Source: Primorskyibacter flagellatus (GTDB taxonomy: Bacteria > Pseudomonadota > Alphaproteobacteria > Rhodobacterales > Rhodobacteraceae). Taken from it: a stretch of DNA of 64,000 nt. Of this stretch, positions 1-22,445 are shown piece by piece. Within the stretch, counting starts at the first letter, position 1. Each line of letters starts with the position of its first letter. The stretch covers positions 1-64,000 of the forward strand of contig NZ_FWYD01000015.1 of assembly GCF_900176485.1 (NCBI RefSeq), given 5' to 3'. The translations under genes were made by a program, and so were the position numbers. The notes under the pieces are model-generated. The model did no database searches and was not told the DNA's origin. It saw only the letters and a program-made list of their open reading frames with translations.

Positions 1-1739
1 GGTGCGTCATCCCGGCGGAAGTTGAATTCGCGCTGGTGTTCGCTGTGGAACCCGTCGATCAAGGCCTCAATATCGGTGACCTTGGACGGCGCAGATACTG
101 CCAAGGCACGCCATTGGCCCTGATACATCATCTCGACCGTGCGCTGCATGACAATGTCCTTGGGCGCTACGCCTTCGTGCTTCAAACGATCAGCGGCCAT
201 GGCCTCCAGCCGCTCGAAGGCGGCCTCCAAATCCTCCGGCTTGGTATCAGCCGCAGCAGCCATGAAGCTGTCTGAGAAGTCGTGCTGGATATCGACCAGC
301 AGGCAACCCAGAGCCGATGTCACACCCGGATTGGGCGGGATAATGACAGTCGGGATCGACAACTCCTTGGCAATTGCCGCACCATGCAACGCCCCGGCTC
401 CGCCAAACGCCACAAGCGCGAAGTCCCGTGGGTCATAACCTCGGCTAATCGACAGCAAACGCACCGCATTGGCCATATTTGCGTTTGCAACCGCAACCAC
501 GGCTTCGGCGGCTTCGTGCAGCTCCATTCCGAAAGGCTCGGCCACAGTCTCTCTGACCGACGCTTCGGCCAGGGCGGGATCAAGGGTAATCTTGCCCCCC
601 GCGAGCGATGTGCCAAGGCGGCCCAGCACAACATTGGCGTCCGTGTTTGTGGCCACTTCATTGCCGTTCTTGTAGCAGGCAGGCCCAGGGAAGGCGCCCG
701 CAGATTGCGGTCCGTTGCGCAGTGACCCGCCTTCGTCTTTCCACGCCAGAGATCCGCCGCCCGCACCAATGGTCAGCACTTCGATCGACGGGAACCGGAT
801 CGGATAGCCATATTCGATATACCAGTCTTTGGTGACACGCGACTTGCCTTCATACACCAAGGATACGTCCGTGCTGGTCCCGCCCATGTCAAAACCGATA
901 GAATTGTCAAACCCGCAAAGGTTGCCAATAAAGCGGCTGGCAATCGCGCCCGCGGCAATGCCCGACCCTGCCAGACGCGCGGCAAAGTCTTTAACGCTGG
1001 CCGGGGTCATCACGCCGCCGCCCGTGTGCAGCAACAGCAGATCGCGTTCGTAGCCGCCGTCAGCCAGCTTACCCTCAAGGCGCGCTACATAATCAACGAC
1101 CGAAGGCGACACGACCGCGTTTGCCATCGTTGTCGAGAAACGCTCGTGCTCAAAAATCTCCGGCAGGACCTGTGAAGAGATCGACACCGGCACATCCGGC
1201 ATCACACTCAGCAGAATGTCTCGCATCCGCTCTTCATTGGCCCCATTGGTGTAAGAGTTCATAAAGCAGACAGCAACAGAGGCGACTTTGCGCTTCTTCA
1301 AAACATGCGCGATGCGCAGCGCTTCTTTTTCGTCCAGCTTTTCCAGAACCGTGCCGTTCGCGTCGACGCATTCACGGACGGTCAGACGGTCCCGACGCGG
1401 GATGTAGGGCTTGGCCACATCTTTGTAGGTGTCCCACAGATCCTCCTTGTTGGCCCGGCGGATTTCGACCACGTCGCGGAACCCTTCGGTGCAGATCATC
1501 GCAGAGCGCGCCAAATTACGTGTGATCAGCGCGTTTGTTGCCACGGTTGTCCCGTGCGAAAACATCGACACCTCGCTGAGGTCGATGCCGCCCTGATCAA
1601 TCCCGTTGAGAATGGCAACCATCGGGTCATCCGGTGTCGATGACGTCTTTTCGATGCGGATCGCACCCGTTGTTTCGTCCATAATGACGACGTCGGTAAA
1701 CGTCCCACCCACATCTACGGCAACTCTTGTGTTCTTCAT
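1..1739 (-). CDS. Hydantoinase/oxoprolinase family protein (HyuA-like), 3' end outside window
   Basis: The protein begins MKNTRVAVDVGGTFTDVV, the N-terminal ATP-binding signature of the HyuA/5-oxoprolinase A family. Later segments such as GFDMGGTSTDVS and ALVAFGGAGALH are further family hallmarks. These enzymes open cyclic imides such as hydantoins or 5-oxoproline with ATP, normally with a HyuB partner. About 579 codons are present and the C-terminus lies beyond the left edge; HyuB is not visible. The ATG at 1739 follows an AAGGATG ribosome site. The AraC-type regulator gene lies 87 bp upstream on the same strand and may control it. The substrate cannot be told from sequence. Confidence 0.88.
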   Translation of the reverse strand, partial: MKNTRVAVDVGGTFTDVVIMDETTGAIRIEKTSSTPDDPMVAILNGIDQGGIDLSEVSMFSHGTTVATNALITRNLARSAMICTEGFRDVVEIRRANKEDLWDTYKDVAKPYIPRRDRLTVRECVDANGTVLEKLDEKEALRIAHVLKKRKVASVAVCFMNSYTNGANEERMRDILLSVMPDVPVSISSQVLPEIFEHERFSTTMANAVVSPSVVDYVARLEGKLADGGYERDLLLLHTGGGVMTPASVKDFAARLAGSGIAAGAIASRFIGNLCGFDNSIGFDMGGTSTDVSLVYEGKSRVTKDWYIEYGYPIRFPSIEVLTIGAGGGSLAWKDEGGSLRNGPQSAGAFPGPACYKNGNEVATNTDANVVLGRLGTSLAGGKITLDPALAEASVRETVAEPFGMELHEAAEAVVAVANANMANAVRLLSISRGYDPRDFALVAFGGAGALHGAAIAKELSIPTVIIPPNPGVTSALGCLLVDIQHDFSDSFMAAAADTKPEDLEAAFERLEAMAADRLKHEGVAPKDIVMQRTVEMMYQGQWRALAVSAPSKVTDIEALIDGFHSEHQREFNFRRDDA

Positions 1740-1826
1740 GTCTACATCCTTCAAAAGACAACAGGGCATCAGGAAGGCGCCGGCGAAAGCCGACCCTACT
1801 TGGGGGTTTTCGGTTTTAGCTAAGGG

Positions 1827-2789
1827 TTACGGAGGGGCCGTCTTCTGGCCTTGCTGCGCGGCTTTGCGCGTTTCGGTCGGTGTGCAGCCGAACTGCGCAC
1901 GATAGGCTTTGTTAAACTGGGATTGATCCGAAAACCCCCACCGATGGGCTATCTCGGCAATTGTGATGGGCCCTACGACGCTCAGGTCCTCGCGCGCGCG
2001 CACCAGACGCTTTTCGCGGATGAACCCGGAAACCGACCTGCCCGACTCCGAGAACAGTTGTTGCAGATAGCGCTGCGACACATTGCAGGCCTCTGCCACA
2101 AGACTTGAGGAGAGATTCTCATTGAAGAGGTTGTTGCGGATAAACTGTTCTGCGCGGTGCAGATGTGCTGCGCGGATTGTCGAGGTTTCGCTGTCCAGCA
2201 CACGGTCATCTTTGCGGATTGAGAGGCACAGCAGATCAAGGATGTGCTTGCCAGCGGCCGCGCGCGCCTGCTCATCAAGCAAATCGACGTGCAGCGCCGT
2301 TGTCTTGACGGTATCCAGAAAATAACTGGCCACGCCGGCTGTGCCATCAAAACTCAGCGCGCCCAAACGGTCTGTTGGGCCGATGCGGGCCCGCACGCTT
2401 TCGGAAGACACCTTCAGCACCAACAGCTCGTTCGTCTGTTCATGCCAGAACTCGTAGGGCAAATCGCCCCGTTCTACCAGAAACTCGCCCGGTGAACATT
2501 TCGCCTGGCGGGCATTCTGGTCAAAGCCGACCGTCCCCAATCTTGGAATGGTAATCAGCAGACTGCTTTCAACTTCGTCCAGAAAGTGCCGCTTGTGCCT
2601 TTTGTAGAGAATGCCATCGCAACGCATCTGCGACAGACCGACGATACCGAGGTTCCAAGTATTGAGATCACCTGAAAAGGACTGGTCATCCGCCATCGTG
2701 GTCTCTAGGGGAAAGAACGTATCTGAGACAGCCGCCTGCCACTGGGTGGCAGTCATGAGCTTGTTTGCAGTTTTGTCCTTCTGATTCAT
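1827..2789 (-). CDS. AraC-family transcriptional regulator
   Basis: 320 aa. The first two thirds fit the cupin-like AraC-binding domain. The C-terminal ~100 residues hold two helix-turn-helix units, including SSLVAEACNVSQRYLQQLF and TIAEIAHRWGFSDQSQFNKAY, the usual AraC/XylS DNA-binding pattern. The ATG at 2789 is preceded by GGGGA at good spacing. It lies upstream of, and in line with, the hydantoinase gene and diverges from the aminotransferase, so it probably regulates one or both. The effector is unknown. Confidence 0.88.
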   Translation of the reverse strand: MNQKDKTANKLMTATQWQAAVSDTFFPLETTMADDQSFSGDLNTWNLGIVGLSQMRCDGILYKRHKRHFLDEVESSLLITIPRLGTVGFDQNARQAKCSPGEFLVERGDLPYEFWHEQTNELLVLKVSSESVRARIGPTDRLGALSFDGTAGVASYFLDTVKTTALHVDLLDEQARAAAGKHILDLLCLSIRKDDRVLDSETSTIRAAHLHRAEQFIRNNLFNENLSSSLVAEACNVSQRYLQQLFSESGRSVSGFIREKRLVRAREDLSVVGPITIAEIAHRWGFSDQSQFNKAYRAQFGCTPTETRKAAQQGQKTAPP

Positions 2790-3340
2790 CTAACGTCCCC
2801 AAAACACAAATGGCGAAAACACAACTGTCTCATGTGTTAAAATGATCGTAGCACCGTTCCGGCCAACCACTTTGGCAAAAAACGCACAAACTCTTGTGTC
2901 ACGTGTCAATTCGCGCACTTGCGATTCTTTCATCGGGCCCAGAAAGGCCCTGGAAAATCCTAAATATCTAACTAAAACATATTTTTACCAACCATTTGCA
3001 GCGCGAGAACACCGCCAAATCGGGTCTTGGTTTTGTGAAACGGAAAGCTGCGAAGGCAACAACCTGAGCGGGATTGGGCCGCATTTTCCCCAAGATTCAC
3101 GGCCGCTGCGCTTCAAAAAAACGAAGCATCCAAACAGAATCACAGGATGGAAGTGTCCTCAAACCACGACCGAAATCCCGGCGGGCGTTTCTGCTTCAAA
3201 TGGGCGGCCTCGCTGGCCCGCAGACAGGATGCTCGGAACAAAACTGCTTGCTAAAAGCAAGAAAGCGGCGATAGCACTGAGGGCAAATCGCGGCCCCCTG
3301 CCGCGTGAAAAACGCCAACTTACAAGAAGTGATGCCTGCC
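2790..3340. promoter_or_regulatory. Divergent intergenic region, AraC regulator / aminotransferase
   Basis: About 550 bp with no convincing gene. It contains an AT-rich stretch near 2955-2995 (AAATATCTAACTAAAACAT and following), unlike the GC-rich flanks, and must hold the promoters of both divergent genes. No exact operator could be assigned by eye. Confidence 0.45.
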
Positions 3341-4714
3341 ATGGATGTGCGACCAAATTCAGACGAAGCCCGTGATATCGCTTATCATTTTCACAGCTAT
3401 ACCAATGCCGAAGCGCATGAAAAAATTGGTCCGCTGATCATTGAATCAGGCGAGGGAATCCACGTCACCGACTCAAACGGCAACCGCTATATCGAGGGCA
3501 TGTCCGGCCTTTGGAGCGTGGCAGTCGGGTTCAACGAACAACGCCTTGTGGATGTCGCCAGCCGGCAAATGCAAAAGCTGCCTTACTACCACAACTTCTC
3601 GCACCGCTCGCATGGTCCGGCGATTGATCTTGCTGAAAAGCTGATCGAAATAGCCCCCGTGCCAATGAGCAAGGTTTTCTATACCAACTCGGGCTCCGAG
3701 GCGAACGATACGATCGTCAAGATGGTCTGGTATCGCTCGAACGCGCTCGGCAAGCCCGAGAAAAAGAAGATCATCTCGCGCCTGCGCGGCTATCACGGCG
3801 TGACAGTCGCAGCCGCGTCGATGACGGGTCTGCCCTATAACCACAAGTCCTTCGATCTGCCGATGGAGGGCATCTTGCACACCACTTGCCCGCACTACTG
3901 GCGCGAAGGTCAGGACGGCGAAAGCGAAGAAGCTTTTGCGTCACGCTGTGCCCAAGATCTTGATGACATGATCCAATCAGAGGGCCCCGAAACTGTAGCC
4001 GCATTCATCGCCGAGCCTGTCATGGGCGCGGGCGGTGTTGTTGTTCCTCCGGCGACCTACTGGGAGAAAATCCAAGCGGTTCTGGCGAAATACGATATCC
4101 TTCTTATCGCAGATGAAGTGATTTGCGGTTTTGGCCGCACGGGCAACATGTTTGGCTCTACAACCTTTGACATAAAGCCCGACATTCTCACCATGTCCAA
4201 GCAGATCACCTCCAGCTATTTCCCCTTTTCGGCTTTCATGATCAACGATCGGGTCTATCAGCCAATCGCCGACGAAAGCGGGCGCATCGGTGTTCTGGGG
4301 CATGGCTATACGGGCGGTGGCCACCCCGTCGGCGCAGCCGTAGCGCTGGAAAACATCAAGATTATCGAAGAGCGCGATCTTGTGGCCAATGCCGCCGAAC
4401 GCGGTGCAGAATTGCAAGCTGGATTGACCGACCTGACGTCCCACCCTCTCGTTGGAGAGGCACGTGGCATTGGCCTCATAGGCGCACTTGAATTGATCGC
4501 CCCAGAGGGTAAATCAGGCGATTTTGCCCCTGGAAAACTCGGCGCCCAAATGAACGCAATCATGCTGCGCAACGGCCTCATCTCACGTAATATGACAGAC
4601 GCGATGGCATTTTGTCCGCCATTGATAGTGGGCGCGAATGACGTGCGAGAAATCATCCAGATCACAAAAAAGAGTCTGGAGGAACTGGCCGCAGACATAA
4701 ACGGGGCCGCCTAG
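3341..4714 (+). CDS. Class III (omega) aminotransferase, PLP-dependent
   Basis: About 457 aa. N-terminal PNSDEARDIAYHFHSYTNA, the PLP-site YTNSGSEANDTIVK, LLIADEVICGFGRTG and the Schiff-base lysine in TMSKQITSSYFPFSA are standard for class III aminotransferases of the omega-amino acid/diamine:pyruvate type. It moves an amino group from an amine or omega-amino acid to an oxo acid in the cytoplasm. Starts at 3305 (GTG), 3332 (ATG) and 3341 (ATG) are possible. I chose 3341 because AAGAAG (3324-3329) is at workable distance and homologues begin near this point. Its neighbours suggest catabolism of a nitrogen compound, but the substrate is not determined. Confidence 0.88.
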   Translation: MDVRPNSDEARDIAYHFHSYTNAEAHEKIGPLIIESGEGIHVTDSNGNRYIEGMSGLWSVAVGFNEQRLVDVASRQMQKLPYYHNFSHRSHGPAIDLAEKLIEIAPVPMSKVFYTNSGSEANDTIVKMVWYRSNALGKPEKKKIISRLRGYHGVTVAAASMTGLPYNHKSFDLPMEGILHTTCPHYWREGQDGESEEAFASRCAQDLDDMIQSEGPETVAAFIAEPVMGAGGVVVPPATYWEKIQAVLAKYDILLIADEVICGFGRTGNMFGSTTFDIKPDILTMSKQITSSYFPFSAFMINDRVYQPIADESGRIGVLGHGYTGGGHPVGAAVALENIKIIEERDLVANAAERGAELQAGLTDLTSHPLVGEARGIGLIGALELIAPEGKSGDFAPGKLGAQMNAIMLRNGLISRNMTDAMAFCPPLIVGANDVREIIQITKKSLEELAADINGAA

Positions 4715-4971
4715 TCAGGGGAACGACAAGCCAGAACTCTTACCCTTTCCCATCCGGGAAAAACTTGGGTCGGCCTGTCTACACATTTTCCGGGTGGCGC
4801 CTGTCACGCGAGCTGATCTTTACAAATCTCGTTCAACCAAGAGCTTCTTCGGGTGAACCTTTGCTGAGCGGCTTTCAGACCGGCGAGACTCCGTTCTTGT
4901 TGACGGCCTCTTCGTTGCTTTGGTGCGTTGCGGCGGCGCGGGCCGAGCTGTGACGCGCAGGACGCGGACGA
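4715..4971. other. Intergenic, nothing recognised
   Basis: About 260 bp between the aminotransferase stop and the toxin remnant. A short inverted repeat (TTTCCC/GGGAAA near 4746-4761) could be a weak terminator. No gene is supported. Confidence 0.4.
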
Positions 4972-5293
4972 CATGCGCGACGCGCTTCTGCATGAGGCGG
5001 CAGAGGCGCGCCGCTTGCCCTCTGATCCTGACTGGGACGTCATCGAAAACTCCGGCCTCACCTGGGGCGGGCCGATCAGGGAGCAGGGTGGACCGTGGTA
5101 GGATCACCTGGAACGATTGGGCGGTTTGGGAGAGCGCACGCCCGACAACTTCAAGACGTTCGATTTCTTCGACGAAGATCGAGGCCTTGCCACAAGCGCA
5201 AAGACGCTCGAAACCCGCGCGCCGGGATATGCGGACCGGCCCAGCCGTATCTTTGGTGCATTGAAGCGCTATATTGATCAGATCGACAAGTTT
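4972..5293 (+). pseudogene. Remnant of a restriction-endonuclease-fold (CdiA-CT-like) toxin with in-frame stop
   Basis: Reading from the ATG at 4972, one frame gives WDVIENSGLTWGGPIREQGGPW, then a TAG at 5098-5100. It continues in the same frame as DHLERLGGLGERTPDNFKTF, DFFDEDRGLATSAKTLETR and SRIFGALKRYIDQIDKF. The FKTFDF, ATSxKTLxT and LKxYID motifs in this order match the endonuclease toxin domain found at the C-termini of CdiA and other polymorphic toxins, from my knowledge of that family. Homology stops at about 5293, where an ArdA remnant begins on the other strand. There is no intact delivery module or start region, so I read it as a dead fragment. Confidence 0.5.
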
Positions 5294-5296
5294 GGA

Positions 5297-5453
5297 GGGG
5301 GTGTCGTAGGAGAAACAGTAATACTGCAAGCTCTCTGGGATTTCACCGTAAAGCCCTTCATCTACAAACTTCTCGGCCAGCTCCCGCAATGTCTCGACAT
5401 GGTAGATGTCAATGTCATGCTGACCGAGCATTTCCTCGAAAGTGTATCCGCAT
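5297..5453 (-). pseudogene. C-terminal fragment of antirestriction protein ArdA
   Basis: Minus-strand frame reads CGYTFEEMLGQHDIDIYHVE then TLRELAEKFVDEGLYGEIPE and SLQYY. This matches the C-terminal part of alphaproteobacterial ArdA proteins, whose consensus there is close to DIDIYxxxxLRELAEQFVDEGLFGxIPxxLQYYIDYDAIARDL. Homology starts exactly at the left terminus of the IS66 element and ends where the toxin remnant starts, so both ends are lost. ArdA mimics B-DNA to block type I restriction enzymes; this fragment cannot be functional. Confidence 0.55.
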
Positions 5454-5478
5454 TGTAAGCATCCAGGGAAGCCCCTCT
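5454..5478 (+). repeat. Left terminal inverted repeat of the IS66 element
   Basis: Begins TGTAAGCATCC and ends CCCCTCT. It pairs with the repeat at 8436-8460 with two mismatches over 25 bp. Confidence 0.85.
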
Positions 5479-5517
5479 GCACTGTGATCATAGCAGCTCG
5501 TTGATTGTCATTCGGCG

Positions 5518-5847
5518 CTAATGATTGGCCGTGGTTCCGACCAGTTTCAGCCCAACAATCCCAGCAACAATCAAGAGAAGACAGGCGACACGAGCCAAGT
5601 CTTTTTGCTCTCCCAAGATGGTCATTCCAATAATAGCAACGCCCACAGCCCCAATACCTGCCCAAACGGCATATGCAGTACCTACGGGAATGTCTTTCAT
5701 TGCTTCAGCCAAGAGCCAGAAGCTTGCGATCATTGCGAGCACGGTCAGGACAGATGGCTGAAGTTTCGTGAAGCCTTGAGTGTATTTCAGACCAATTACC
5801 CACCCACATTCAAGAAGACCCGCAAAGAACAAGTAAACCCAAGCCAT
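5518..5847 (-). CDS. gdx: SMR-family guanidinium exporter (Gdx/SugE type), IS66 passenger
   Basis: 109 aa with four hydrophobic helices. The conserved transport glutamate lies in [19 protein letters not shown], and [17 protein letters not shown] is the signature segment of the SugE/Gdx branch of small multidrug resistance proteins. That branch exports guanidinium or small quaternary amines by proton exchange as an antiparallel dimer. The ATG at 5847 follows GGAGGT. It lies 32 bp downstream of tnpC, in the same direction and inside the terminal repeats of the IS66 element, so it moves with the element. No guanidine riboswitch is visible; expression probably depends on transposase read-through. 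Confidence 0.9.
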
Positions 5848-5879
5848 TTTACCTCCATAGGCGTCAATGAAAAGTTTGA

Positions 5880-7583
5880 TCAGGCGGCGTGTTGATCCCC
5901 GACCTCAGCATTCTGCGCGTTGATCATGCCCTGAGATGCCCAAGGTAGCAACAGGGGGATGCGATTGACGGGATGATCCTGGATGCGTTCGAGCACCCAA
6001 GCGAGCCAGGCTTCGGGATTGACGTTGTTCATCTTTGCGGTCTCGATGAGAGTATAGGCGATTGCTGCGGATTTGCCGCCTGCCTCTGACCCCATGAAGA
6101 GGTAGTTCTTTCTTCCAACGGCCACAGGACGCACTGCCCGCTCGGCTGTGTTATTGTCGATTTCCAAGAAGCCGTTGTCGAGATAAGGCCGTGCCTTTGG
6201 CAGGCGCGCGAGGGCATATCGGATGGCCTTAGCCAGTGGCGTCTTGCCGGAGATTTTACCCAACTGCTCCTTGAGCCAGATCTCCAGATCATCAAAGATG
6301 GGCTTGGCGAGTTCCTGACGCAGGGCCACGCGCTCATGGGGTGGTAGGAACCGTGCCTGTGTTTCAACGTCATAGAGCTTTCGAATGCGCAAGACCGCTT
6401 CGCCCGCCACAGGCAGCTTCAGGCTTTCATACAGGGCATAAAACTCCCGTCGCACATGGGCCATACAGGCCATCTCCTTGATGCGCCCCGTGCGGTAGGC
6501 ATCGTTATAGCCTGCATAGGCGTCCGCATGGGCGTAGCCCGTGTAGGATTTGAGATGTTCGCTCGGGTGTTCCGCACCTCGGTTGGTGGAGAACTGATAC
6601 CACACGGCGGGTGGCGCGGCCCCGGACCAGGCGCTCTCATCTCGGGCATAGACCCATAGCCGTGCGGTTTTGCTCTTGTTTTTGCCACGCCCTTTGCCCT
6701 TCTGGAGCAGCTTGACCGTGGTATCATCCATGAAGATGGCTTGTGCCTCAAACACATGGTCACGGATGGCATCTGCCACGCGTTCAAGCAGCTTGGTGCA
6801 TTTGCCCACCCAGAGGGCCATGAGCGATCCGCTCAGGTCGATGCCTTCGTTCTCAAACATCTGGCTTTGGCGATAGAGCGGCAGGTGATAGCCGTATTTG
6901 CAGCACAGGATATGCGCCATCAGCGCGGGACCCACAAAGCTCTTGGGGATGGGGCGGCTTGGCATCTCCGCCTGAACCACCTTGTCACAGCAGCTACAGG
7001 CCAAACGCGGGCGGTTGATCTGATTGACGATGTAATGGCCTGGAACATATTCCAACTCTTCCAGAACATCTGTTCCCAGCTCCCTGAAGCGGCCACCACA
7101 GTCTTCACAGGTCTCACCGGGGGTGATGGTCTTCTTGACCCGCTTAAGCCCCTTTGGGAAAGGCTTGCGTTTGCGCGGGGTGCGCGGCGGCTTTGGGACG
7201 TCTGCCTCGGAAGACGTCTGGCCCTCACCATCACCTTCAGTCTCTGCGGCTTGCTCGATCTCCAACTCTTCGAGGATCAGTTCCAGCGCCAGTTGCGCGC
7301 TGCTTTCCGACTTTGACCCAAAGCGGTGCTTTTTGTGACCATGCAATTGCAAGCGCAGATCAGCAATGAGGGTATCTCGGCTCTGGATGGCCCGCGCATG
7401 GGCGGTGCGCTCGGCAGCAAGGGCGGCTTCCATCTCATCCTTGAGGCGTTTTTGGGCGGAGGCATGGCTCAACGATTGGCCCAACAACTCCGCATCCTTA
7501 CGGGCCAGTTCCGCCGCTTGTGCGGCTACAAAGGCCTGCACGTCAGGTGGCAGATCAGCCAGATTTGGAGGGGTCTTACGCAT
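5880..7583 (-). CDS. tnpC: IS66 transposase TnpC
   Basis: About 567 aa. It has the family order: an N-terminal coiled-coil/leucine-rich part, a zinc-binding CEDCGGRF...CSCCDK region, then a DDE catalytic core with [24 protein letters not shown] and [20 protein letters not shown], and the C-terminal IS66 helix. ATGs at 7598 and 7583 are possible; I prefer 7583 ([15 protein letters not shown]) by family length. No disruption is visible, so the element may be active. Confidence 0.93.
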
Positions 7584-7652
7584 GCCATTCCATAGCAAAA
7601 TCGGACATCAGGGGGAATCCCAAAACAGCAAGAAAGCCCATAAAACATTGCC

Positions 7653-8000
7653 TCAGCCCACCATCGCGGGCCGCCATGTCTTCTGCGGCATGCGCCAGTC
7701 TATGCCTTCCATCAGCATGGCCAACTGCGCGCGGCTCAGGTTGATTTTACCCTCGCTGGCCGTGGGCCAGACAAACCGACCCCGCTCCAAGCGCTTGGTG
7801 AACAAGCATGCACCCTGACCGTCCCACCAGATCATCTTGATCTGATCACCTCGCCGTCCCCGGAACAAAAACAGATGGCCGGAATAGGGATCGCCCGCCA
7901 GAACCTGCGCGGTCTGTGCCGCCAGACCGTTGAACCCACGCCGCATGTCCGTCACACCCGCCGCCAGCCAGATCTTCGCATCCGCCAGAACAGGGATCAT
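7653..8000 (-). CDS. tnpB: IS66 accessory protein TnpB (Orf2)
   Basis: 115 aa beginning [20 protein letters not shown], with [20 protein letters not shown], the hallmarks of the IS66 Orf2/TnpB family. It overlaps the end of tnpA by four bases, implying translational coupling. It is required with TnpA and TnpC for transposition of IS66 elements. Confidence 0.95.
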
Positions 8001-8362
8001 GCCGCCAGCCCCCGCGCCAGTTCCAGCACAAAGCCAGCATCAACCCCGTCGCTAACGCTCAGCTTGCGCCCATTCTCCAGCGTGATCTCTATCCGGGAGC
8101 TGGCTGTAGGCCGCGCTTCCGGCAGCATCGGTACTGCATCGTGATCGCCGCCTGAAATCTCAACAGGCATGAACCCGGCATCATCAGACCCATCGGGTTG
8201 AAACCTGTCATCGCTGCGCCACGAATAAATCCGGCTTGTCGGCACGCCATGACGGCGAGAAACCATCGGCACACTGACACCATCGGCTTGGCTCTCTGCC
8301 ACCAACCGCCGCTTGAACTCATCCGAGTATTTGGAACCCCGCCCAACCCGCCGTTTACTCAT
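7997..8362 (-). CDS. tnpA: IS66 accessory protein TnpA (Orf1), HTH
   Basis: 121 aa. The N-terminal part ([20 protein letters not shown], then [14 protein letters not shown]) is a transposase-type helix-turn-helix, and the C-terminal part is the variable Orf1 region. It is the first gene of the tnpA-tnpB-tnpC-gdx order. Confidence 0.93.
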
Positions 8363-8435
8363 CTCAAAACCCTCATATTGCGCCAGTCAAATCGCCAGCC
8401 TCGCGCAATAATCGCACCTCAAATCAGCCCAAAAT

Positions 8436-8460
8436 AGAGGGGGTTCCCTTGATGCTTACA
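8436..8460 (-). repeat. Right terminal inverted repeat of the IS66 element
   Basis: Its reverse complement starts TGTAAGCATCAAGGGAA and ends CCCCTCT. It matches the left end at 23 of 25 positions. Confidence 0.85.
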
Positions 8461-8461
8461 C

Positions 8462-8695
8462 GCAAACGACTTTTTTAGGGATATGCTGTACAAATATGAA
8501 CTGGGTGACAAGGTAACCAATGAAGACGCCGAAATACTAACGCATCTCATGCATATGCATCCCGAAGCCGCCGAAAAGATCGGCCCGGGAATTGAAAGCT
8601 TCAGTGTAAGAACGGCGGATTACGGAACGCGCTGCTTCTGGGTCAACCGCGTCGATGGAACGACAGAAAAATTCTCCTTTCGAGCGTGTTACTGA
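8462..8695 (+). pseudogene. DCL/DUF3223-family protein, 5' end removed by IS66
   Basis: In-frame sequence from the IS66 boundary reads NDFFRDMLYKYELGDKVTNE, then DAEILTHLM, HPEAAEKIGPGIESF, YGTRCFWVNRVDGTTEKFSF. This fits the C-terminal two thirds of the DUF3223/DCL family (DKVTDEDAEFL..HPEAxEKIGxGI..TRCFxIxRxDGT..FSFxxC). The usual N-terminal ~35 residues are missing. The ATG at 8483 could still start a 70-residue product, but it would lack the family's first strand-helix region. Confidence 0.6.
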
Positions 8696-8926
8696 TCATC
8701 AACACAGAGCTGCCATCGGCTATCGCTCATTAATTGGCTCGTATTCGAGTTTATGCTCTTCCTGGTGTGCGGTGACCTGCCACTGGGCTCTGATCCAGCC
8801 ATGACTGGTGCCCGGTTGGTCTTAAGCTGCCTACGGATTCTGGACCGCCGAAAGGTGGAGGATCCGGTTGCCGAAAACAAACGCGAAATACATGCTATGC
8901 GAAATCTTCTTCTCTAAAATTCAATC
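8696..8926. other. Short intergenic region, nothing recognised
   Basis: About 230 bp. A plus-strand frame ending at the TAA at 8915-8917 could encode about 40 residues ending in a charged stretch, but it has no recognisable family or ribosome site. Confidence 0.3.
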
Positions 8927-9202
8927 TTAGTTCTGCGCCACGGCTGCCCTATACCCTCGCTGCTTTTTGCTAGCATGGAGCTTCATGAGCGCCGTGACAG
9001 CCTTGCCCTCGTCATCATGAAATTCGATCATCATCTGCCCTCGAAACCCGATACGGCCCCATTCCCGCACGAGGCATGCGCCGCCAAACAGGTCTGGTTG
9101 AACACTCATTCTATAGAAGCGCCGCATGTTGATAGACAGGTCGACCCGCTTGAGATCGACTGTCGTCGGGAACACTTCCATTTGCTGCATCGTATCCAAC
9201 AT
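8927..9202 (-). CDS. WGR domain-containing protein
   Basis: About 91 aa dominated by a WGR domain: NMRRFYRMSVQPDLFGGACL, VREWGRIGFRGQMM, then a charged C-terminal helix. WGR domains occur in PARPs and in many small plasmid proteins and are thought to bind nucleic acid. I chose the ATG at 9202 because AAGGG lies about 10 bases upstream; the upstream ATG at 9229 has no such site. It is divergent from the DUF2235 gene. Confidence 0.8.
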   Translation of the reverse strand: MLDTMQQMEVFPTTVDLKRVDLSINMRRFYRMSVQPDLFGGACLVREWGRIGFRGQMMIEFHDDEGKAVTALMKLHASKKQRGYRAAVAQN

Positions 9203-9376
9203 ATTGGGCAATCCCTTCTCATGTGTCACAATATCAGGTAGACATATGTGTTTCCACTATGTTCTAATTTTTCCCGACTCGGGCGAAACATTTCCGCTGC
9301 ACTCTCTCCTAGCTTGGCAGAACTGCTGCAGGTTTAGGATTTTGACTGTACTTCGTGTTCTTGAATAGGGCGACAA

Positions 9377-10798
9377 ATGGTAAAGAACATCTGCATATTC
9401 TCGGACGGAACCGGCCAGATGGGTGGCGCCAGGCCAGACCAACGGCTGTCGAATGTTTACAAGATGTATCGAGCCATGCGTCCCGGCCCAGATTCACCAA
9501 TTAGCCCTAAGGACCAAGTGGCTTTTTACGACCCGGGCTTGGGAACAGGAGAACGCGGTGGGTTTTTCGGTCGGATCAAGCCCATCCTGGAAAGCGCCGT
9601 CGGAACTGGCATCGACCACAACATAATCGATTGCTACGAGCAGATCATCGCCCATTACGAGCCCGGCGACCGTGTGTTGCTGTTTGGGTTCTCGCGCGGG
9701 GCCTACACAGTAAGAGCACTTGCAAACGTTATGAACCTCTGCGGTGTCCCGACGCAGATGCCAGATGGTTCGCCGGTCCCGCGTTACGGCCCCGGATTGC
9801 GCAAGATCGCCAAGGACGCTGTAAAATTCGTGTATAATCACGGTGCTGGAAAACCGCGCGGACAAGATCCTTACTTCAAGAACCGTGAAGAACTCGGCAA
9901 GCGATTTCGCAAGAAGTATTCGAGCTTTCCGCTCGTAGGCGAAGAAAATCAGGGAAACGTTCAGCCAACATTCATCGGGGTCTTCGACACGGTGGCATCA
10001 CTGCGAACGGCAGTTGTCCGCACCTTGGTCTGGGGCGTCACGTTCGGGGTCGGGGCGGCTTTGGCCGCAGGCGTTGCACTCGGATGGTCTTGGCTTTTGG
10101 TTGTTCCGCTTGGCGTACTTCTAGTCGCGCTTCTTTGGCAGCTAGGTTCCCTGTTGCTCGACAACTTCAAGTATTTCTCGGACGATCCCGAGCGCAAACT
10201 GAAGCTCTGGCGCCCAACCGATTGGCCGCAGATTCTCAAGACGGGTCATTTCGCGGCTTGGAACAAGCGCAACTACGACAAGTGGCTGGATCCCGATGTC
10301 CAACACGCCCGTCACGCCATGGCGATCGACGAAGACCGTGCTGACTTTCCAAGGGTTGGATGGGCATCGAAGGCGGCCGCGATTGAGACCAAAGATCGAG
10401 AGCCGAAGTGGTTGAAGCAGGTCTGGTTCCCGGGCTGTCATAGCGACATCGGTGGAAGCTATCCTGAGGCAGAGTCCCGCCTGAGCGATATCGCCCTCGA
10501 TTGGATGGTCGACGAATTGAAAGACTGCGTGCCGTCGATCCAGATCAACGAGAACGTCTTGAACCGCGCCCCTGACCCTCTGGGTTTGCAGCACCGCGAA
10601 GACGCGATGGTAGCATTTGGCCCCCTCCGCATCCGCTGGAAGAAGGGAATTCGCGCAGTTGGCGACGACTTCCCGCTCCATCCTTCAGTCGAAGAGCGCA
10701 TGCGAGCCAAGGCCGTCGCCCAGTGTGGCGAGGTCAAACCCTACCGACCTGCCCAATTGAAAGAGCGACGCGACTTGAAATTCTACTACGACGAATAG
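9377..10798 (+). CDS. DUF2235 alpha/beta-hydrolase (Tle1-like phospholipase family)
   Basis: 473 aa. It opens with NICIFSDGTGQ, has the nucleophile elbow GFSRGAY (GxSxG, Ser about 106) and later WFPGCHSDIGGSY, all marks of DUF2235, which includes type VI secretion Tle1 lipases. Residues ~210-250 form one or two hydrophobic helices (VTFGVGAALAAGVALGW, LLVVPLGVLLVALLW), so it is probably membrane-attached. No VgrG, PAAR or immunity gene is adjacent, so a secretion role is not supported. The ATG at 9377 has AGGGCG upstream. It converges with virD4 18 bp away. Confidence 0.8.
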   Translation: MVKNICIFSDGTGQMGGARPDQRLSNVYKMYRAMRPGPDSPISPKDQVAFYDPGLGTGERGGFFGRIKPILESAVGTGIDHNIIDCYEQIIAHYEPGDRVLLFGFSRGAYTVRALANVMNLCGVPTQMPDGSPVPRYGPGLRKIAKDAVKFVYNHGAGKPRGQDPYFKNREELGKRFRKKYSSFPLVGEENQGNVQPTFIGVFDTVASLRTAVVRTLVWGVTFGVGAALAAGVALGWSWLLVVPLGVLLVALLWQLGSLLLDNFKYFSDDPERKLKLWRPTDWPQILKTGHFAAWNKRNYDKWLDPDVQHARHAMAIDEDRADFPRVGWASKAAAIETKDREPKWLKQVWFPGCHSDIGGSYPEAESRLSDIALDWMVDELKDCVPSIQINENVLNRAPDPLGLQHREDAMVAFGPLRIRWKKGIRAVGDDFPLHPSVEERMRAKAVAQCGEVKPYRPAQLKERRDLKFYYDE

Positions 10799-20273: not shown

Positions 20274-22445
20274 TTATGCTGGGACGATTCTACCGACCAT
20301 CGCGGTAAGAGTATCGGGCGCAAGCTTGGAAGAAATTGCATCCAACTCCAAGAGGGGCTGCGACAGGTAAGGATGAAACTTCTCCGACATTAAATTCCCA
20401 GCTCCAGCGAACAGATCGACAGGTTCGCCAGATCGAATGTGCGCTAGTACCGTTTGAAGATCGGGGGTTTCGTCCCCGGCCTCCACCATCAGAAACCCGT
20501 CATGCAGTTCGACCGAAAACCCCTCACTTCTCAGTGCTAGCGCGAGGGTTGATGTCTTCACAGTACCGACCCGCGTCGCAATGACTGATGTATGCTCGCC
20601 AATGGTGTGTAGGTTATTGGCCCTAAACCCCAGCTGTTCATAGTGAGCACGCGCTTCCTCGAGCATCATCAAAGAGACTGTATCCATGTAAGCTGGGCTG
20701 GAATCCCCCTCGAGCACGGCGAACATTCGGTCGATCACTTTGTCATGAATGTCCCCCGCATCGCCGCCGAAGACGGGCGGCACACCAGCCTTCGCGGGTT
20801 TGACGACGATGACCTTTTCACGATCATGGATTTCTTGAACAACCCAACGTCGCCCAGAGAATATTAATAGCATCCCAGGGGCAAGAACATTATCGATCGG
20901 CAGGGTTCCAAGGTCCCGCCCCTCTGCGACCAACCGGAATTCCTCAGGCGTCTGAAACACCGCATAGAAGCTGTAATGCTCAACCAGTTTTTCGCCCGCG
21001 GGTCCCAAAAGCAACAGCCCGCTGCCGACCTGTTCGATCAAGCCGGTTTCTGGGTGGCCGATTGCACGCAACACATCTGCGAAGACTTCGGTTGTGACCT
21101 TCCGAAAGGGGCCTTCGCGGCAGAGCACATTGTAGACCACGCTTGCAGACGCACCGCCGCGCTGCGCTATGACTGACAGTATCTGGTGGACGAGCGTCGA
21201 GAGATGAAGCGCCTGAGGTTTTGGAGGTTCGCACCAGCCTTCCAGCAGCAAGTCTATCATCGCGATGGACCTGATCAGGCCGAGGCGAAGACGATCCACG
21301 AAACTGCTCTCCGGCGTCAACTTGGCTTCGACAGCATACTGCCTGAGAATGGCCGGCTGTCCTTCACGCCGGCCTGATCGGCCAAGCCGTTGTCGCAACG
21401 CGGCGACGCTGAATGGCGCACCGATTTGAGCCACGCAGGTCACGTCACCGATGTCGATTCCAAGCTCGAGCGTCGATGTGCAAACGGCTGTCGTCGGTTT
21501 CGCAGGGTCCTTCAAGCGCCGCTCAACGAAGTCACGGTGTTCTCGGGAGAGGCTCGCGTGGTGGGGATAGAATTCCTGTGGCAGGTGCTCCCGTTCGCAA
21601 AGCTCCCGCAACCGATCTGCGTAAATCTCGACCCGTTGACGCGCTCCGGCGAAGACCAGGTTGTCGCTGCCTCGAAGGTGTTTGAAAAGATGTGCTGCGA
21701 TCGCGTCCGTTGCGGATGGGCTGTTTTCATCTTCATCGCCGGAAAGGTAACCGCGAAGCTGAAGCTTCAATTCAGCCTCGCCGCCATCTGCTTCGATCAG
21801 CTGGACAGCGTTTGCGGCGTCAGGGCGAAGATAGGCCTTAGCGAGGTCCATGTCGCCTAGCGTAGCTGACAGACCTATCCGACGGATTGGGCGCTTTATC
21901 GCGAGCTCGAGCCGTGTGAGCAGTGAACGAAGCTGGACACCGCGTTCGCTGTCCAGAACTGTGTGCAGCTCGTCGATCACGACCGCCCGTGTCGCCCCAA
22001 ACAGGCGGGCAATTTCCAAACCGCGACGAATGAAAAGCGCCTCAAGGGACTCTGGGGTTATCAGAAGGATCCCTTTTGGAGATATCAACGCGCGCGTCTT
22101 GATGGATTGCGAGACATCTCCGTGCCAGGGAACAACCGGAAGCTCTGCTTCCTGGCAGATGCCCTCCAGCCGCATGGCCTGGTCCGTGATCAGGGCTTTC
22201 AGCGGACCGATGTAGAGCAGGTCGAAGCCGGTGCCGCCCGACGGCTCGTCAAGCACCTGTGAAATCAACGGCAGGAACGCCGCCTCGGTCTTTCCGCCCG
22301 CCGTAGAAGCTGCAACGATTAAATCGGCATTGGATTCGCAGATCGTCCGGATGGATCGCGCCTGGATGTCGCGAAGTTCGCGCCAACCTTTCTGGCGTAT
22401 CCATTTCTGCACAGGCCTCGCCAGTTTGTCGAACGCACTGCTCAT
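20274..22445 (-). CDS. Lhr-like DEAD/DEAH helicase, SngC-type subunit of a Shango system
   Basis: 723 aa superfamily 2 helicase: Walker A AASTAGGKTEAAFLP, motif II VVIDELHTV (DELH), motif III RIGLSATLGD, and motif VI AALRQRLGRSGRREGQP, then a long Lhr-like C-terminal region. It is related to BrxHI of BREX type 2. Gene order TerB protein - ATPase - helicase is that of Shango antiphage systems. Start at 22445 is 5 bases after the ATPase stop, so the three are co-transcribed. Confidence 0.85.
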   Translation of the reverse strand: MSSAFDKLARPVQKWIRQKGWRELRDIQARSIRTICESNADLIVAASTAGGKTEAAFLPLISQVLDEPSGGTGFDLLYIGPLKALITDQAMRLEGICQEAELPVVPWHGDVSQSIKTRALISPKGILLITPESLEALFIRRGLEIARLFGATRAVVIDELHTVLDSERGVQLRSLLTRLELAIKRPIRRIGLSATLGDMDLAKAYLRPDAANAVQLIEADGGEAELKLQLRGYLSGDEDENSPSATDAIAAHLFKHLRGSDNLVFAGARQRVEIYADRLRELCEREHLPQEFYPHHASLSREHRDFVERRLKDPAKPTTAVCTSTLELGIDIGDVTCVAQIGAPFSVAALRQRLGRSGRREGQPAILRQYAVEAKLTPESSFVDRLRLGLIRSIAMIDLLLEGWCEPPKPQALHLSTLVHQILSVIAQRGGASASVVYNVLCREGPFRKVTTEVFADVLRAIGHPETGLIEQVGSGLLLLGPAGEKLVEHYSFYAVFQTPEEFRLVAEGRDLGTLPIDNVLAPGMLLIFSGRRWVVQEIHDREKVIVVKPAKAGVPPVFGGDAGDIHDKVIDRMFAVLEGDSSPAYMDTVSLMMLEEARAHYEQLGFRANNLHTIGEHTSVIATRVGTVKTSTLALALRSEGFSVELHDGFLMVEAGDETPDLQTVLAHIRSGEPVDLFAGAGNLMSEKFHPYLSQPLLELDAISSKLAPDTLTAMVGRIVPA

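Follow-up and report, generated by a model that had tools for sequence, protein, structure and literature searches.

In the IS1380 family, the insertion sequence ISEcp1 combines a constant IS end with a variable and poorly matching far end, produces a target duplication, and mobilises its neighbours. Among IS66 elements, those with a passenger gene downstream of the transposase are called tIS66, with ISPa75-fosZ as an example in the accessible part of the relevant paper (PMC12888890). In Paracoccus, the accessible text of a second study describes transposable modules (TMo), each made of a single IS1380-family copy and adjacent DNA of various lengths, as well as two captured IS66 elements with 8-bp duplications (PMC3281130). 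We analysed a stretch of 64,000 nucleotides from Primorskyibacter flagellatus (contig NZ_FWYD01000015.1, positions 1 to 64,000; hereafter the window), in which an IS66 element holds a gene for a predicted SMR exporter, gdx, within its repeats, and is a further example of tIS66. Sequence comparison makes it very likely that this element moves by one-ended transposition, in which the gdx-side repeat is bypassed. In the proposed mechanism, the IS66 transposase would take the tnpA-side end (8459) every time, a surrogate and poorly matching end farther out on the gdx side would be joined instead of the repeat at 5455, and gdx would be inserted together with 8–10 kb of neighbouring DNA, producing an 8-bp target duplication.

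All three transposition genes are on the reverse strand. The product of tnpA (7997..8362) matched HTH_Tnp_1 and the IS66_ISRel24_TnpA model (74.6 bits, cut-off 74), tnpB (7653..8000) was IS66 Orf2-like in Pfam and NCBIfam, and tnpC (5880..7598; annotated in Sulfitobacter D7 with a start 15 bases later than the window open reading frame) encodes a DDE transposase with the DDE_Tnp_IS66, zf-IS66, LZ_Tnp_IS66 and IS66_C domains. TnpA, TnpB and the DDE TnpC all carry IS66 domains by Pfam and NCBIfam, which places the element in the IS66 family, and the domains of TnpC are not of the IS1380 type, which argues against membership of the ISEcp1/IS1380 family. The original prediction placed gdx between tnpC and a terminal repeat, on the strand of tnpABC and enclosed by IS66 repeats, and the order of open reading frames and the domain matches agree with this arrangement. 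The true left end, which might have fallen between gdx and tnpC, maps outside that interval. The predicted 25-nt inverted repeat (5454-5478 and 8436-8460) was reproduced with 23/25 complementary positions (92%), and its length needed correction. In the other five copies of the element the base after ...CTTAC is C, and in the window it is A, which indicates that the outermost T/A pair consists of target bases. The true ends are therefore at 5455 and 8459, and the terminal repeats, on the gdx side at 5455..5478 (forward strand) and on the tnpA side at 8436..8459 (reverse strand), are 24 bp long, identical at 22/24 positions, and begin with GTAAG as required for the IS66 family.

The gdx (sugE) gene (5518..5847, reverse strand) encodes 109 amino acids, is preceded closely by what looks on inspection like a GGAGG-type ribosome site, and is separated from tnpC by 32 bp on the same strand. 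Its product scored 133.9 bits against the NCBIfam SugE model NF008512 (cut-off 126) and also matched Pfam PF00893. The closest solved relative by sequence is the guanidinium exporter Gdx-Clo (PDB 6wk5 and others), to which the window protein aligns without gaps over residues 1-103, retaining E13, W16, S42, Y59 and W62. Residue W16 is conserved in Gdx proteins and is Gly or Ala in Qac proteins, according to the accessible part of PMC7695847. Both the SugE model and W16 assign the window protein to the Gdx subtype of the SMR family, and it would be expected to export guanidinium. Apart from the window's own protein, the nearest SMR protein in 394 family genomes had 62% identity among the matches listed, and the GC content of gdx was 0.494, compared with 0.58-0.62 for tnpABC. 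Expression of gdx from the transposase operon is plausible given the shared strand and the spacing. A promoter and terminator scan gave 3 and 1 sites, respectively, no better than the shuffle means of 1.8 and 2.8, and an Rfam search that included the guanidine riboswitches returned no family at E <= 1 in window positions 1-10000.

A search of 72,556 plasmid records found three, all from Sulfitobacter, that covered at least 80% of the query, with 100% identity over window positions 5300-8459. A Gdx protein search of the genome collection yielded 238 relatives, of which the best 80 were examined; it added two copies with identical Gdx, in S. delicatus and Paracoccus sp. R12_2, and among those 80 relatives gdx was paired with this IS66 only in these two genomes. 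The window and the five other copies had 0 differences over the 3,005 bp from 5455 to 8459. When the 3.0-kb DNA was searched against the 394 family genomes, with two candidates per genome scored, 49 genomes gave matches, and among the matches listed the gdx part was matched in the host only; the genus-level search comprised 2 genomes. Insertions of the 3.0-kb unit alone may therefore exist in genomes beyond those sampled. Sites with at most 3 mismatches to the IS66 end occurred in 5 of the 394 genomes, the host included, and the four other genomes with a single-end match contained no second repeat at up to 8 mismatches within their short flanks of 1.6-3.0 kb. The nearest other elements found were two Octadecabacter plasmid copies, which were about 76-80% identical and without gdx. 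The possibility raised beforehand that all other copies would lack gdx is thus not borne out as worded; gdx-less relatives do exist in Octadecabacter, and these are different elements.

Comparison of the flanks indicated what had moved. The DNA to the left of 5455 was common to all six copies (99.8-100% over the 2.45 kb compared), whereas the DNA to the right of 8459 was of three kinds, one in the window, one shared by D7, both S. faviae plasmids and Paracoccus, and one in S. delicatus. Several independent insertions always including gdx had been named beforehand as support, and three such events were found among the six copies. The 3.0-kb mobile unit that had also been proposed did not stand, as the repeat at 5455 was used in 0/3 events, and each event had a different non-repeat end 8-10 kb outward. 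An ordinary two-ended tIS66, in which the 3.0-kb segment from 5455 to 8459 moves and the flank differences arise from later recombination, might be expected from the presence of both repeats, 22/24 alike, and from the target duplications of known tIS66 elements with the passenger at this place, as given in the accessible part of PMC12888890. However, three jumps of a 3.0-kb unit would have left three left flanks too, so this unit is not the one that jumped. The left DNA was the same in 6/6 copies, none of which had a duplication at 5455, and by eye the 8-bp duplications anticipated at the 5454/8460 repeats were absent from the window and D7; it is the remote tips that carry them. Later homologous recombination is disfavoured because it would not create 8-bp duplications at remote junctions. 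We therefore regard two-ended movement as unlikely for these three events, although earlier use of the 5455 end is possible.

In the window, the host contig (C18, 84,092 bp) is circular by a 95-bp end overlap, and the transposed unit of 11,036 bp occupies window positions 1..8459 and continues across the circular join (C18:81421-83997). C18:76413-81421 tracks a plasmid of Ruegeria sp. THAF33 up to position 8008 of the THAF33 record, which resumes at its position 8000 with window position 8460, and the hydantoinase operon runs from C18:81418 onward. The target duplication, ACGCAAAC, lies at 8460..8467 (forward strand) on the right and at C18:81413-81420 on the left. It can be read as nine bases, since the ninth also agrees, and is taken as eight because the ninth base differs in the other two events. 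Joined with one copy of ACGCAAAC, the flanks form 161 bp identical to Ruegeria THAF33, where the DCL (DUF3223) gene split by the insertion (3' part at 8460..8695, forward strand) is whole. Farther along, window positions 9377-10798 encode a DUF2235/Tle1-like phospholipase-type protein beside conjugation-transfer and relaxase genes, in a backbone common to a plasmid typed as mobilizable.

The second event is represented by Sulfitobacter D7, whose unit of 12,711 bp has its left tip at record position 21705 and its right tip at 8995, with CATAAAGG on both sides and abiEii as the target. Once joined, the flanks read through in a single frame and align without gaps to the abiEii gene of the window itself, with 293/329 bases identical. 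The left and right junctions of two S. faviae plasmids and of Paracoccus R12_2 are the same as those of D7, and the four copies are therefore counted as one event. In Paracoccus sp. R12_2 the insertion lies on a contig of 103,640 bp, at the same site as in the 105-kb D7 plasmid. This copy could reflect a contaminated assembly or a recent intergeneric transfer of the same plasmid, and for this reason it adds no event. In the third event, S. delicatus, CCTCGTTT is present on both sides of the unit, the joined flanks match Roseovarius THAF9 at 120/120 positions with a single copy of the 8-mer at the site, and the left tip is 99 bp inside that of the window (positions 809 and 710 of the same reference record). 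The S. delicatus cargo also contains a transposase gene (positions 8804-9934 of its record), IS256-like by eye.

In every event, therefore, the 8-bp target duplication is perfect and the target has an uninterrupted counterpart elsewhere, which is identical for the window and S. delicatus sites and 89% identical for D7. At equal base frequencies, all 8 bp at a given position would agree by chance once in 65,536 per event. All three events have the tnpA-side end at 8459 in common, and the other ends lie in or just past a hydantoinase/ABC-transporter operon, of which S. indolifex has a complete version. IS-adjacent deletion or inversion starting at the 8459 end after a single insertion would likewise keep the left side constant and let the right flanks vary; this was our first reading, and it was dropped when the remote duplications were found. 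Such rearrangements do not produce a duplication at a distant left tip, and the uninterrupted target of each event, identical for two and 89% for the third, also opposes them, so that we consider this explanation highly improbable. The metabolic genes in the cargo would also fit a composite transposon, a common type of element, whose second, far-side IS66 copy has since been lost. However, the host genome contains no third repeat copy at up to 3 mismatches, the only sites being the ends at 5455 and 8459, and three exact losses at three junctions would be needed. The outer tips differ between events, by 99 bp and about 1.7 kb, and directly abut the duplication, which indicates that there is no IS at these tips; a lost second copy thus has very little to recommend it.

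One-ended transposition of the gdx-carrying IS66 is the reading supported by these observations, because its marks are one end that stays the same, remote ends that vary and a duplication of fixed length. One constant end, three differing other ends, three 8-bp duplications and three uninterrupted sites were seen, and the constant end, variable other end and duplication that define a one-ended unit were present in 3/3 events, whereas movement between both repeats in the manner of tIS66 was found in 0/3. These are three independent events from a single lineage of identical elements. The only transposase genes in the part common to all copies are those of IS66, and TnpA, TnpB and TnpC probably performed the three insertions. 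The duplications have the 8-bp length of the IS66 family in all three events, but they lie between 8459 and a remote tip; the length fits IS66 because it is that of the Paracoccus IS66 elements in the accessible text of PMC3281130 and of the copy in O. arcticus.

Comparison with the O. arcticus element offers one possible reason why the gdx-side repeat is bypassed. The tnpA-side end (8459) is identical at 24/24 positions to both ends of the O. arcticus IS66, a 78-80% relative, whereas the gdx-side end has two substitutions relative to them. The O. arcticus element (positions 3821-7904 of its record) has no gdx, and its two perfect ends are flanked by CCTTCACC, an 8-bp duplication; these ends align without gaps over 122 bp, as though one had arisen by inverted duplication of its partner. 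No duplication flanks the repeats of the O. antarcticus relative, whose tnpC is annotated in fragments. Given the perfect ends of a relative, the two substitutions suggest that the gdx-side end of the window element is weak, and acquisition of gdx may have weakened it, forcing the use of remote ends.

If remote ends are used, their choice appears to follow a weak preference at most. The three outer tips matched the 8459 end at 6, 9 and 7 of 24 bases, scores that are ordinary for random positions: across 8 kb of the S. indolifex plasmid, 61%, 13% and 42% of positions, respectively, score at least as high against the 24-bp end. When the comparison is limited to the first 9 bases, the tips match at 4, 5 and 5, and 16%, 5% and 5% of positions do at least as well; these values are slightly better than chance, so some weak end recognition is possible. 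Two of the three tips start with GT, as the repeat does, compared with 5% of positions, and the D7 tip starts with GA. The tips of the window and S. delicatus fall within an ABC-ATPase gene, of which S. indolifex, S. pontiacus, THAF37 and LC.270 have complete annotated copies. In D7, the operon DNA breaks off within a permease gene that S. indolifex carries intact, and another sequence fills the remaining 86 bp before the tip (positions 4621-4706 of the D7 extract). These 86 bp are 75.6% identical to a Phaeobacter plasmid gene right up to the junction, and are probably a former neighbour left from an earlier hop.

Two more junctions resemble earlier insertions made in this way: one near 5318, where LC.270 diverges, with the tip GTAATAC, and the one between the permease fragment and the 86 bp of the D7 unit, with the tip GTAGACC. 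Next to the first, a 136-bp segment (5319..5454) replaces other sequence of LC.270, the plasmid whose left DNA runs closest to the 5319 junction, which is certain to about 1 base. The segment is fused into a hypothetical gene (5117..5458, forward strand), which departs from the LC.270 sequence in its 3' part, starting at about 5319, and is a probable trace of an earlier hop. Its peptide, perhaps reminiscent of ArdA, matched no Pfam or NCBIfam family and occurred within the plasmid collection only in three copies of the unit.

The cargo (window 1-4714 and C18:81421-83997) comprises genes for hydantoinase A and B, an AraC regulator and a class-III aminotransferase. In the window these are part of the hydantoinase A/oxoprolinase gene (1..1739, reverse strand; coordinates transferred from D7), the AraC-type regulator gene (1827..2789, reverse strand; from a Pfam search and the D7 annotation) and the aminotransferase gene (3341..4714, forward strand; start transferred from D7). 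The top NCBIfam models for the two hydantoinase genes were caprolactamase alpha and beta, with scores far below the cut-offs (507 and 298, compared with 1000), and on this basis the cargo could perhaps serve a lactam or cyclic-amide pathway. All of the cargo belongs to one operon, and selection may therefore have filtered the events that survive.

It is conceivable, though somewhat doubtful, that the gain of gdx left this IS66 without a working gdx-side end, making it an obligate one-ended mobiliser that takes gdx and arbitrary adjoining DNA with it at every hop, and that IS66 elements elsewhere behave likewise and have gone unnoticed. If so, the GTAATAC and GTAGACC junctions would be older hops nested in later ones. 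Many plasmids of these bacteria carry IS66 elements, which are commonly treated as self-contained units. If one-ended movement is true, annotation of insertion sequences by paired repeats understates what IS66 elements carry, and no second IS copy would be needed for catabolic or efflux genes to spread. Three insertions with uninterrupted sites are on record, so that the case can be checked.

We found no description of one-ended transposition by IS66 in the open literature searched. In the accessible parts of the papers retrieved, those on one-ended transposition that mention IS66 speak of IS91/IS801, and those on transposable modules tie the modules to the IS1380 family or do not tie them to IS66. 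The main text of a Sulfitobacter plasmid paper (PMC13386836) names neither hydantoinase nor SugE. Within that literature, the new part is the one-ended movement of an IS66 element. Compared with ISEcp1, the window element has a transposase of another family, three proteins (TnpA, TnpB and TnpC) and an 8-bp duplication. The Paracoccus modules likewise join a single IS to adjoining DNA, and come from the same bacterial order as the window element; they differ in belonging to the IS1380 family, and the IS66 elements there are given as plain insertion sequences in the accessible text (PMC3281130). The arrangement of ISPa75-fosZ resembles that of the window element, with tnpA, tnpB and a DDE transposase followed by one resistance-type gene within repeats whose ends start GTAA, as far as the published description is accessible. 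Unlike the window unit, however, that IS and its gene have ten target duplications of their own, whereas the window element bypasses its second repeat and takes flanking DNA along.
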